DNA from: Rhizobium sp. Q54
Lineage (GTDB): Bacteria > Bacteroidota > Bacteroidia > Flavobacteriales > Flavobacteriaceae
NCBI GenBank assembly: GCA_943328505.2
Contig: CALQAH020000001.1
Span: 161,057-225,056, forward strand
Length of the DNA: 64,000 nt
Direction of reading: 5' to 3'
Each line of letters opens with the position of its first letter. The first letter of the stretch is position 1. Position numbers and translations under genes: made by a program. Under the pieces are notes generated by a model that saw nothing but the letters and a program-made list of their open reading frames with translations, did not search any database and had not been told where the DNA came from. Below, in pieces: positions 33,170 through 38,589 of this stretch.

Positions 33170-33194
33170 CAACCGCTTAAAAGATATAACATCT

Positions 33195-33268
33195 TCCTTC
33201 TTAGCTCAGTTGGTTAGAGCATCTGACTGTTAATCAGAGGGTCCTTGGTTCGAGCCCAAGAGGGGGAG
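33195..33268 (+). tRNA. tRNA-Asn (anticodon GTT), copy 1
   Basis: TCCTTCT...CTGTTAA loop...CTTGGTTCGAGCCCAAG AGGGGGA G. Confidence 0.95.
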
Positions 33269-33278
33269 CTACTAAAGA

Positions 33279-33318: not shown

Positions 33319-33338
33319 GTTTGCACATAGTTTGCACA
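33319..33338 (+). promoter_or_regulatory. Candidate integrase arm-type site (left)
   Basis: gtttgcacatagtttgcaca, tandem TTTGCACA; near-identical copy at 38462-38481. Confidence 0.5.
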
Positions 33339-33370
33339 AAATGACATTCCAAGACCATAAACCAACATTT

Positions 33371-34573: not shown

Positions 34574-34652
34574 CTTACTAATACATTTTAATCATCCTAT
34601 TTGCTATGGTTAAAAAAACAACTAAGTTTGTTATAAACTAAATTGTGTCATC

Positions 34653-36026
34653 ATGGATTGTTGGTATTGGAAAATCCCTAGTACAATTGATCTGAATAGC
34701 ATTCTGGCAAAAGATCCTCCTATCTTTAAAAAAGGGTACAAGGTTGACTACTTTTACTATTTTATTGAGCTACTAAGCATTAAGATGGAGTACAATGATT
34801 TAGATGGGAACAAGGGGTTTATCAATCTTAGTGCTAAAATAATGCAAGGAGTAGTTCATAACTACAATGAATACCTGGAATATCTTATTAAACACAGAGT
34901 GATTAGGACAGATAAGAAATACATTGTAGGGCGTAAATCGATGGGATATATTCTTAATGGACTAGACCATGATAGTGAAATCGTTCTTGTAAAAATAAGC
35001 GATTTTATCATACGTAAAAAACGAGCTAAAGAATATACAGCTAATGAACTAGAGAAGAAAAAAGTTAGCTCTAAATACCCCTATTTAACCAAATGGTTCA
35101 ATGACAAGCTTCAGATTGATGCTGAGGGAGCTAAAGCTAAGATAGAAGAGTTGTTTCCCCAACTAAAAGGAGCTATTAGAGGTGTGCGAAAAGGCAAAGC
35201 TAGTAGGATGACCAAAAAATATTGTGCCAAACTTGCTGTTCAAAAACTAGTAAATCAAGACTACTATTATTCAGTAGATGATAATGTAGGGCGATTTCAT
35301 TCTAATCTAACCAATATAAAGAAGGAGCTAAGGCATTACATAACTTATGATGGTGAAACACTAGTAAACGTTGATATTAAGAACTCTCAGCCTCTTTTAA
35401 GTTCAATACTCTTTGATCCATCTTTTTACAGCCAAACCAAACCTCGATACATTAATTTGTATAATATACCATCTTCATTTGAGTATCTAACAAATAATAA
35501 TAAGTATACCTACTCACACACTATCATTATGTTAGTAAAAACTCTGCAAAAGGTTGATAATAAAGAAGTTAAACAATATCTAAGAATGGCTAAGTCAGGA
35601 AATTTCTATAAAGAGTTATCTAAAGCAATGTATCCAAAACTAGCTTTTGATAAGGGTAGAATGAAAGAGCTAACATACAAGGTGTTTTTTTCAAGCAATA
35701 AATCAATCCAAGGGATGAATAACTTATCTAAGAGGCAATTTAGAATGAAATTTAAGAGCATCTATGGGATGTTTGCTGCAATTAAGAGAAAAGACCATAG
35801 GGCATTGTCTCACATACTACAAAGGATTGAAAGCGAAATAATGATTCAGAATGTCTGTAAAAGAATCTCATTAGAACATCCAGCACTTCCAATTTTTACT
35901 ATTCATGATAGTGTACTAACAACAGATGGCAATCAAGAGTATGTTGCTAAGATAATCAAAGAGGAAGCATTTAAGATAACAGGGTTGAAAGTTTCTTTAG
36001 GAATAGAAATACTAAACCAAAAATAA
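34653..36026 (+). CDS. Hypothetical protein with possible family-A-polymerase/single-subunit-RNAP-like palm motifs
   Basis: Motifs VNVDIKNSQPLLSS, RMKELTYKVFFSSN and FTIHDSVLTTDG in the order A-B-C. Confidence 0.5.
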   Translation: MDCWYWKIPSTIDLNSILAKDPPIFKKGYKVDYFYYFIELLSIKMEYNDLDGNKGFINLSAKIMQGVVHNYNEYLEYLIKHRVIRTDKKYIVGRKSMGYILNGLDHDSEIVLVKISDFIIRKKRAKEYTANELEKKKVSSKYPYLTKWFNDKLQIDAEGAKAKIEELFPQLKGAIRGVRKGKASRMTKKYCAKLAVQKLVNQDYYYSVDDNVGRFHSNLTNIKKELRHYITYDGETLVNVDIKNSQPLLSSILFDPSFYSQTKPRYINLYNIPSSFEYLTNNNKYTYSHTIIMLVKTLQKVDNKEVKQYLRMAKSGNFYKELSKAMYPKLAFDKGRMKELTYKVFFSSNKSIQGMNNLSKRQFRMKFKSIYGMFAAIKRKDHRALSHILQRIESEIMIQNVCKRISLEHPALPIFTIHDSVLTTDGNQEYVAKIIKEEAFKITGLKVSLGIEILNQK

Positions 36027-36386
36027 ATTTTGTGTGTTAAGATGAAGCAATGCACTCACAACAAGCCCAAAATAGGTCTTCTAAAGCTAAATCTAATCCC
36101 AGGTTCTATAATACTAAATATAGCATAAAGTTGGGATTTTACAACATATCATTAAAAAAATTATTTTCTAAAATTTCTAACTTGGATAGTTATTTTAGTC
36201 TGTAGGTGAATTTGAAGCCTCCTTCCCCCAAGACCTCCCTTTGATGATTTTCATGTTGGATGCATTCCCCACAAGGAATAATAATAAACGTTTAAGAACA
36301 AAATAGATACGCTAATTGACAGTATTTTTTTCTGACAAATAAGTTTGCTATATTTGAAAAAATTTATAAAACATAAAACTATAATC

Positions 36387-36992
36387 ATGAAAAAAATCAC
36401 TAAAACAATCCTTTTTATTGCAATGATGTTTGTTTATTCTAATCTATCTTATGCACAAGATATGATTACAAAAAAAACAGGTGAAGATATTAGCGCCAAA
36501 GTATTGGAAGTTACATCTTCAGAAGTAAAGTATAAAAAAACAGACAATTTAGAAGGACCAATATTCACCATCTTAAAATCTGAGGTATTAATAATCAGGT
36601 ACAAAAATGGAACCAAAGATGTTTTTAGTAATGCTAAAGATGTAATTAGTCAAACAGTTGTTGCTGAACAAATAAATGAAAATGATATGTTTTCAAAGGG
36701 AAAATCTGATGCAAAAGCTTTTTACAGGGGAAATAATTCAGGAGCTGGATGGACTGCAGCAGCAACAATATTAACTTCCCCACTACTTGGGGTGATCCCA
36801 GCTGCTATATGTACTTCAACTGAACCAAGTGATGCCAATTTAATGTACCCAAATCCTTCTTTGATGAAAAGTCCAGAATATTATAGATCATATTTGAACG
36901 AAGCACATAGAATTAAAAAAAATAAAGTATGGAAAGCATTTGGTATTTCTGCTGGTGTTTGGTTAGGTTTAATTCTAATTTTAAATCAATAA
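36387..36992 (+). CDS. Hypothetical secreted/membrane protein
   Basis: Signal peptide MKKITKTILFIAMMFVYSNLSYAQ and C-terminal TM. Confidence 0.7.
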   Translation: MKKITKTILFIAMMFVYSNLSYAQDMITKKTGEDISAKVLEVTSSEVKYKKTDNLEGPIFTILKSEVLIIRYKNGTKDVFSNAKDVISQTVVAEQINENDMFSKGKSDAKAFYRGNNSGAGWTAAATILTSPLLGVIPAAICTSTEPSDANLMYPNPSLMKSPEYYRSYLNEAHRIKKNKVWKAFGISAGVWLGLILILNQ

Positions 36993-37033
36993 ATTAGTTG
37001 CTTTCCCTTTTTGTACTAACGTTTAAAATCAAT

Positions 37034-37741
37034 ATGAAAAAAATATTCTTATTACTCGGTATCACTTTACTAATGCTTCAATCATGTTCCTCAGGAGATG
37101 GTGATAACAATAATAATAATGCTACCTCAGTAAGTGATGTTGATGGAAATGTTTATCAAACTGTTACAATTTGTAATCAAACTTGGACTAAATCCAATCT
37201 AAATGTATCACGTTATAGAAATGGAGATGAGATACCACAAGTAACTGACCAAACTCAATGGGACAATTTAACTACAGGAGCTTGGTGTTACTATAATAAT
37301 GATCCAGCTAATGGAGCTATTTATGGCAAACTTTATAATTGGTATGCTGTTCACGATTCAAGAGGTTTAGCTCCCCTTGGTTGGCATATTCCAACTGATG
37401 TAGAATGGACGAGTTTAAGCGATTGTTTAGGAGGTGGATCAATTTCTGGAGCTGCAATGAAAGAAACAGGAACCAATCACTGGATAAGCCCAAATTCAGA
37501 TGCCACTAACACTAGTGGTTTTACAGCACTTCCTGGAGGATTTCGTTATGGAATTCCTGGTCAAACAGGAATTAATTTTACATTTGGTAACATTGGTGAG
37601 GTTACTATTTGGTGGAGTTCAACTGATGCTCCTCAATATAATGCTTTAACTGCATGGAGTTTTGGGATTTATGGAGGAACCACTGCTAGAGATCATGATA
37701 CAAAGAAGCTAGGAGTTTCAGTACGTTGTATAAAATATTAA
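37034..37741 (+). CDS. FISUMP (Fibrobacter succinogenes major paralogous domain) lipoprotein
   Basis: DVDGNVYQTVTICNQTWTKSNLNVSRYRNGDEIP...YGKLYNWYAVHDSRGLAPLGWHIPTDVEWTSL; lipobox LQSCSSG. Confidence 0.9.
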   Translation: MKKIFLLLGITLLMLQSCSSGDGDNNNNNATSVSDVDGNVYQTVTICNQTWTKSNLNVSRYRNGDEIPQVTDQTQWDNLTTGAWCYYNNDPANGAIYGKLYNWYAVHDSRGLAPLGWHIPTDVEWTSLSDCLGGGSISGAAMKETGTNHWISPNSDATNTSGFTALPGGFRYGIPGQTGINFTFGNIGEVTIWWSSTDAPQYNALTAWSFGIYGGTTARDHDTKKLGVSVRCIKY

Positions 37742-37855
37742 AATATTTAAACAAAGCAATCAAAATGTCTCACTACAATCGTTTGCTTTGTTACGTTGGG
37801 CTGTTCCAGTCGCTTTGACAAGCTTCCATTCCACAGACCACTTGAAACCAAAAAC

Positions 37856-37893
37856 TAAGAGCAGCTAAGAAAAATAGCAGCTCTTTTTTTGTT
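37856..37893 (+). terminator. Terminator-like hairpin
   Basis: aagagcagctaagaaaaatagcagctcttttttt (one internal mismatch). Confidence 0.6.
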
Positions 37894-38461
37894 TTCTACG
37901 CTCCCAATCTTCACACGCTCACTCATTGCGTTCGTTAGAGCTACTAAATCCAAAATACAGCTTCATTTCGTTGCACTGCATTCCAGCAGTATTGTTGTCT
38001 TTCGCTCTATGTTAATTTGGTGGTTGCTCCTTCAACCAGCAGTTGGGGTTTGCTCACTTCGTTTGCTCCAAATCAAAGAACGCCTGAAGGCTGTGTTTTA
38101 TTATTTCCCCAACGTTTCACGCTCTCAGTATTACATTACACTTCGCAAAAGCTACGTTTCATTCCCATCCTGAGGCTGCTGTTTGATTGCCACAACACCA
38201 ACCATCGCTCCTCGTAAAATTCCATTGCATTACATTTTACTGTGGTGCTTGGGGGTGTTAAGTAGTGCTAAATTAGACCATCTTTCAAAAAAAGGGAAGC
38301 AAAGTTAGAGTTCATTCCTTACTCCAGTCAGTCATGCTTCCTTCCATTCTCGTAAGTCATTACCTCAAGGAGTATTGCTTTCCTTTTTCTCTTTTTTTCT
38401 TTTAGAAAAATATAATACATTTGGTTCAAGTAGAACAAACACATTTTATAACCAGGTTTTG

Positions 38462-38482
38462 GTTTGCACATAGTTTGTACAA
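38462..38482 (+). promoter_or_regulatory. Candidate integrase arm-type site (right)
   Basis: gtttgcacatagtttgtacaa, one mismatch to 33319-33339. Confidence 0.5.
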
Positions 38483-38509
38483 TCGATGAAGAATTTTTAA
38501 AACGTATCT

Positions 38510-38583
38510 TCCTTCTTAGCTCAGTTGGTTAGAGCATCTGACTGTTAATCAGAGGGTCCTTGGTTCGAGCCCAAGAGAGGGAG
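38510..38583 (+). tRNA. tRNA-Asn (anticodon GTT), copy 2
   Basis: Identical to copy 1 except the 3' acceptor strand AGAGGGA instead of AGGGGGA. Confidence 0.93.
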
Positions 38584-38589
38584 CAAATG

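Follow-up and report, generated by a model that had tools for sequence, protein, structure and literature searches.

A putative TV-Pol-type family-A DNA polymerase encoded beside the integrase of a 5.3-kb tRNA-Asn element

What kind of enzyme is the 457-residue protein encoded directly downstream of an integrase gene at this locus, and what could it do for the element that carries it? In the window, the 64,000-nucleotide stretch of DNA analysed here, the gene is an intact, ATG-started ORF that contains, in N- to C-terminal order, VNVDIKNSQPLLSS, RMKELTYKVFFSSN, and FTIHDSVLTTDG (Table 1). A first-pass annotation had tentatively read these strings as palm motifs A, B, and C of a family-A or T7-RNA-polymerase-like enzyme of no clear family. 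The ORF was recovered at exactly the annotated position with its three strings in order, and its linkage to an integrase was also confirmed: the integrase gene, itself preceded by a tRNA-Asn gene, ends 80 bp upstream.

Table 1. Features of the tRNA-Asn element in the window (positions counted from the first nucleotide of the window).
Feature	Coordinates	Strand	Basis
tRNA-Asn copy 1, left end (attL side), directly after rseP	33191..33269	+	ARAGORN
Direct repeat GTTTGCACATAGTTTGCACAA, 21 nt, candidate integrase arm site by left end	33319..33339	+	95% identical second copy
Tyrosine recombinase (integrase), ~410 aa	33332..34573	+	Pfam and PHROG matches
Candidate Bacteroidota promoter: TTTG (34600-34603), 19-bp spacer, TAAGTTTG (34623-34630)	34600..34630	+	sequence read
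Predicted TV-Pol-type family-A polymerase, 457 aa (P0001)	34653..36026	+	structure, homologue conservation, context
Predicted N-terminal winged-helix-like domain, residues 31-101, H1-S1-H2-H3-S2-wing-S3	34743..34955	+	model of residues 1-118
Motif A, putative catalytic aspartate D241 (VDIKNSQP)	35373..35375	+	D in 99/99 covered rows
Motif B, K334-xxx-K338-xxx-Y342-xxx-F346, fingers	35652..35690	+	K338 in 96/98 covered rows
Motif C, H418-D419	35904..35909	+	D419 in 97/97 covered rows
Cargo: 215-aa protein, unassigned family, signal-like N-terminus	36345..36992	+	ORF; no Pfam match above cut-off
Cargo: Fib_succ_major-domain lipoprotein	36998..37741	+	PF09603 5e-43
~660-nt non-coding region near right end, dispersed repeat in genus	37755..38414	.	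sequence comparison
Second copy of candidate arm-site repeat	38462..38482	+	direct-repeat comparison
tRNA-Asn copy 2, right end (attR side)	38506..38584	+	ARAGORN; repeat

Predicted fold and conserved residues

Single-sequence searches with the Pfam, NCBIfam, and PHROG models and against PDB sequences did not yield a match to the window polymerase, and none of the three model libraries recognised a nuclease domain in it. Profiles of 11 and of 64 homologues likewise retrieved no related PDB sequences, and the family-A polymerase model PF00476 matched neither the window protein (E ≤ 1) nor the 11 or 64 homologues (E ≤ 0.1 and 0.01). Alignment of the family profile with the PolA of the host by hhalign gave an E-value of 0.01, with motifs B and C in register and motif A outside the aligned region, a match that is only suggestive. 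MAP_030 of Microcystis phage LMM01, which is probably a TV-Pol, did not match significantly in the same kind of comparison, and RseP, included as a control, was negative. As these profile comparisons were weak or negative, family placement was based on the fold and on individual residues.

An AlphaFold2 model of the 457-aa protein, built with a 64-sequence alignment (pLDDT 85.6, pTM 0.84), showed a palm fold with thumb and fingers, so that the whole chain could be divided into a winged-helix-like domain, thumb, palm, and fingers. Long, confidently modelled helices (residues 118-141 and 182-200) preceded the palm, and R214 was located in a predicted hairpin between strands 206-208 and 215-217, ahead of motif A. 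Comparison of the model with the PDB by Foldseek returned 100 matches at E ≤ 1e-3. Each of the best 50 of these 100 was a family-A DNA polymerase (E between 2e-5 and 2e-4, probability 1.00), among them Taq, Klenow/Bst, Pol theta, and apicoplast and phage Pol I; their low global TM-scores (0.23-0.40) indicated that the match was confined to a polymerase core with shifted domains. Among viral models (BFVD), the best match had an E-value of 1e-22 (TM 0.69/0.76) and the second, at 1e-18, was a 'Putative DNA polymerase I'. The replication protein of the Zamilon virophage, a relative of Sputnik, and a protein of Rheinheimera phage Barba31A were also matched by fold (E 2.3e-4 and 1.8e-6, respectively). 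The palm fold, which the first-pass annotation had proposed to look for in a predicted structure, was thus present.

When residues 1-118 were modelled alone, a winged-helix topology was obtained (pLDDT 85.5). Most top PDB matches of this model were winged-helix proteins, among them ORC2, DnaD, and MarR/ArsR repressors, none of them significant (best E 0.21). Residues 31-101 are predicted to form a winged-helix-like DNA-binding domain.

In searches of genomes and contigs, the nearest homologue was a congener's protein with 69% identity, and proteins with 33-35% identity were found in Winogradskyella, Maribacter, Algibacter, and Lutibacter. Among sampled genomes, 24 of 298 from the order and 15 of 297 from the phylum encoded a homologue, as did 111 viral contigs, 80 of which were kept. 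Huge phages of 595-735 kb also encode relatives; the corresponding records (LR756501-LR756504, LR756511, LR745206) are unannotated. In two viral contigs (L015:7977-10426 and L016:7986-10456), the gene of a TV-Pol relative runs into the beginning of another gene. In L015, the product of this other gene matched PF00476 (DNA_pol_A, E 2.8e-18), so that two different family-A polymerases would be encoded in what is apparently one transcription unit. In a phylogenetic tree, the window protein grouped with the copy from genome G010 within a mixed chromosomal and viral clade, in a topology with weak deep branches and long-branch warnings.

The alignment yielded the family pattern GR-H-[ST]N-(8 residues)-R ... 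[IV]DIxNSQP ... RxxxKxxx[YF]xxxFG ... LQxxES ... T[IV]HDS. Columns D241, S245, Q246, P247, K338, E393, H418, and D419 were invariant in the 64 aligned homologues, a conservation which argues that the motif matches are not due to chance. Residue counts were made on 100 distinct homologue rows, scored only where a position was covered. R214 was present in 100/100 and E393 in 97/97 rows, the aspartates of motifs A and C, whose conservation had been proposed as a second check, occurred in every covered row (Table 1), and column 305, a candidate acidic fingers residue, was acidic in 93/98 (73 E, 20 D). Motif B was present and conserved, but the register in which it had been read was shifted: R336 is not the motif-B Arg, and the invariant Lys of the consensus corresponds to K338. 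The Arg position (R in 63 and K in 30 of 98 covered rows) is occupied by K334 in the window protein, resulting in KxxxK.

The element and its relatives

The element, which lies between two tRNA-Asn copies, comprises about 5.3 kb and encodes the integrase, the polymerase, the 215-aa protein, and the Fib_succ_major lipoprotein; its right end is non-coding. Pfam matches of the integrase were to Phage_int_SAM_5 (1.7e-19), Arm-DNA-bind_5 (8.5e-10), and Phage_integrase (8.8e-06). One GTTTGCACATAGTTTGCACAA repeat lies inward of the left tRNA at a distance of 50 bp and the other just ahead of the right tRNA, the usual position of integrase arm sites, which they probably represent. The tRNA copies share 68 identical nt and differ in the 3' acceptor strand (AGGGGGA versus AGAGGGA). 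The best pairing partner of TCCTTCT is AGAGGGA, which suggests that copy 1 combines a 5' part from the host with an incoming 3' part. Together, the absence of a nuclease match and the integrase and tRNA-Asn ends were in line with the earlier description of a minimal, exonuclease-free polymerase on a tRNA-integrating element.

In nearly all relatives examined, the rseP-tRNA-Asn junction was present; a single tRNA-Asn or a closely spaced tandem pair followed rseP, with other sequence beyond. Two tandem tRNA-Asn genes after rseP were seen in many congeners (L133, L134, L137, L138, L140-L143, L145, L148, and L150), so the pair in the window may in part be an ancestral feature and not a product of integration. 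No helicase or SSB gene was recognisable by Pfam among the ORFs of the element, the 80-bp gap between integrase and polymerase contained no ORF of at least 60 aa that could encode an SSB-like partner, and a search of the element for an excisionase-like HTH_17 gene was negative.

The 660-nt stretch near the right end was 77% identical to that in the element of the closest relative (L152) and thereby more conserved than the polymerase gene (72%) in this pair. It was found in 73 of 390 genomes of the genus, often in several copies. Besides the window copy, copies were located at L152:15212-15875, L237:130-796, and L245-L263, and several of them end about 70 bp before a tRNA gene, after small lipoprotein-like genes. 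Folding was moderately better than that of shuffled sequences (z -2.6 on the plus and -1.7 on the minus strand) and no Rfam match was obtained. A role as element origin or structured RNA was rejected for this dispersed genus repeat, which is untied to the polymerase.

In 22 of the 24 chromosomal loci with a homologue, a tyrosine recombinase was encoded within about 5.2 kb of the polymerase gene (in L152 as detected by Pfam), and many loci were located beside a tRNA gene (Asn, His, Ser, Met, Val, or Glu). Elements in G010, G131, and G228 were bounded by direct repeats of tRNA ends, comprising 43 nt of tRNA-His (9 kb apart), 26 nt of tRNA-Arg, and 17 nt of tRNA-Val, respectively. Two architectures recurred: a recombinase followed by an HTH_17 protein, the polymerase, and cargo, and a recombinase that faces a polymerase gene in reverse orientation, with genes for an AAA_24 ATPase and a DUF3871 protein after it. 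Of the five loci of the latter type (L159, L163, L164, L170, L171), four were at tRNA-Met or tRNA-Val. In L009-L012, from Winogradskyella, Maribacter, Algibacter, and Lutibacter, the recombinase/HTH_17/polymerase core was closely related and the cargo differed; three of these four loci were at tRNA-Ser, and L009, L010, and L012 carried type III restriction-modification cargo. An HTH_17-like gene overlapped the polymerase gene or was at most 18 bp from it in ten loci. Its product is probably excisionase-like, and such tight coupling would tie excision to DNA synthesis.

A Hymenobacter plasmid also encodes a homologue. The idea that the homologue is the sole replicator of this plasmid was dropped, as an ordinary replication initiator is annotated on it, and the polymerase need thus not be the main replicator.

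Proposed role in the element

In the reading favoured here, to which we assign a probability of roughly 0.7, the protein is a TV-Pol-type DNA polymerase that belongs to the core of the 5.3-kb element and probably synthesises DNA on the excised circle. The adjacent tyrosine recombinase would insert the element at tRNA-Asn. Once the element is excised, the enzyme would synthesise DNA on the circle, whether as the maker of primers, as the polymerase, or in both roles, which would allow the element to be copied and then re-inserted or transferred. The winged-helix domain may recruit the polymerase to a site on the element, and catalysis would involve the template-binding hairpin Arg, the motif A Asp, (R/K)xxxK of motif B, and HD of motif C. 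The predicted fold, the conserved catalytic residues, purifying selection, and the linkage to an integrase and tRNA ends underlie this reading, which predicts polymerase activity, priming, and a place in the life cycle of the element. Counting against it are the low global TM-scores, the weak or negative comparisons with PolA and MAP_030, the failure to recognise in the window element the helicase, SSB, or HTH_17 genes that CCPol-type or related elements encode, and the separate initiator of the Hymenobacter plasmid.

The polymerase could instead be cargo, as a passenger anti-phage or repair enzyme comparable to the restriction systems of related islands. Polymerases of other folds occur in defence systems, and related islands encode restriction-modification systems of types I and III, as well as a Mads-like protein, next to the polymerase. 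However, the recombinase/polymerase pair was constant while cargo varied among islands, the same polymerase being kept in relatives with different integrases, tRNAs, and cargo. The overlapping or abutting excisionase-like HTH_17 gene and the occurrence of relatives in large phages also argue against a passenger, which we consider unlikely.

In another alternative, the protein would be a single-subunit RNA polymerase of the T7/mitochondrial type, which would serve transcription of the element and use its winged helix as promoter reader. Superfamily A includes T7-like RNA polymerases, the protein has its own predicted DNA-binding-like N-terminal domain, and the possibility of an RNA polymerase function has been raised for divPolA2 (PMC11348598), which the Barba31A fold match probably represents (judged by the name of the phage). 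However, the best 50 of the 100 PDB fold matches were without exception DNA polymerases, and hhalign gave no match to the T7/SP6 RNA polymerases, represented by an alignment of two sequences only. The residue five positions after the motif-A Asp is Gly in T7 RNA polymerase and Glu in DNA polymerases. In the family it was Gln in 92/99 covered rows, which, bulky like Glu and unlike Gly, would favour dNTPs. In addition, judged against the Bacteroidota promoter consensus, the polymerase gene itself is probably driven by an ordinary promoter of this kind, which ends 22 bp upstream of the ATG and whose TAnnTTTG is likewise found in L152. The T7-like and transcriptional option of the first-pass annotation is thereby disfavoured, and we regard it as very improbable.

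That the window copy is a relic, decaying in a fixed element, is highly doubtful: although the element contains no recognisable excisionase or helicase gene, the motif-B Arg is replaced by Lys, and a search of the source genome found no second copy of the gene, the ORF is intact with a complete catalytic set, the end repeats are well preserved, the same Lys occurs in 30 of 100 distinct homologues, and dN of 0.21 and dS of 1.76 relative to the 69% identical homologue (dN/dS ~0.12) point to purifying selection.

Comparison with known polymerases of mobile elements

Rather than lacking a clear family, as first annotated, the protein has features that fit the TV-Pol ("transposon/virus polymerase") family, predicted in 2008 to consist of primase-polymerases (Iyer, Abhiman, Aravind 2008; PMC2579912). 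With Sputnik V13 as a founding member, this family is defined by a thumb of two helices that form an antiparallel coiled coil ahead of the palm, an invariant Arg in a beta-hairpin that precedes motif A, two palm Asp, fingers that contain an Asp and RxxxK, and the absence of a nuclease (PMC2579912). Its members are standalone or have extra N-terminal or helicase modules, a D5-like helicase being fused or adjacent in some, and their genes adjoin those of integrases, resolvases, or transposases, in islands where restriction-modification genes are found as well; TV-Pols with integrases in mobile elements, including those of Bacteroidetes, were already known at that time (PMC2579912). Consistent with this family, which comprises globular mobile-element proteins of 400-600 aa with lambda-type integrase neighbours, the window protein has 457 aa and lies beside an integrase, with a predicted two-helix thumb, an invariant hairpin Arg, two palm Asp, (R/K)xxxK fingers, and no nuclease; restriction-modification islands and Bacteroidetes hosts are further likenesses. 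Based on fold, residues, and context, we assign it to the TV-Pol type. It differs in that its element has no D5-like helicase, an absence that the published architectures allow, in that its N-terminal domain is predicted to be a mixed alpha/beta winged helix and the published extra domain all-helical, and in that the candidate acidic fingers residue is mostly Glu in its family and Asp in the definition.

As of 2020, staphylococcal CCPol was the only biochemically characterised TV-Pol (PMC7581432). The CCPol-MP or PolA-SSB primases of SCC elements share with the window protein a superfamily-A core with catalytic Asp, an integrative element, and a nearby site-specific recombinase (PMC7581432, PMC10061031). 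This recombinase is a large serine recombinase in SCC and a tyrosine recombinase in the window element, which encodes neither an SSB-like partner nor a helicase; CCPol has been described as near housekeeping Pol I, whereas PF00476 missed the window family. By itself, CCPol is active as a DNA polymerase and can extend primers, but it needs its partner MP for priming (PMC7581432). Because the window element has no such partner, priming by its polymerase is a prediction; either the winged-helix domain substitutes for MP or the enzyme extends host-made primers. It is rather unlikely that one polypeptide, a winged helix joined to a minimal family-A polymerase, recognises element DNA and primes de novo without helicase or SSB. 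If it did, this integrase-plus-polymerase element of 5.3 kb would be among the smallest self-replicating integrative elements. The branch, which in the window occurs with neither of these partners, is thus a compact system in which to ask whether a family-A polymerase can prime DNA on its own.

divPolA2 of barbaviruses and related phages resembles the window protein in its size (~430 aa), its family-A palm without exonuclease, and its separate N-terminal globular domain (PMC11348598). It differs in motif C (VFDE instead of IHDS in the example read) and as a phage gene with variable neighbourhoods and no integrase linkage; no sequence-level match to the window family and no relatives in the viral contigs were found. 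Bacterial DNA polymerase I (Klenow/Taq) shares the palm/fingers fold and motifs A, B, and C, but the window protein is half its size, without 5'-3' or 3'-5' exonuclease domains and without a PF00476 match.

The kind of enzyme was thus already known. The present analysis adds a detailed Flavobacteriales branch with a predicted N-terminal winged-helix-like domain, defined tRNA ends, and, in many islands, an overlapping HTH_17 partner gene. The branch occurs widely among islands of Flavobacteriales and in large phages, and current profile libraries, namely Pfam, NCBIfam and, largely, PHROGs, miss it. A profile built from these sequences would reveal tRNA-targeted islands that are now annotated as "integrase plus hypothetical protein".
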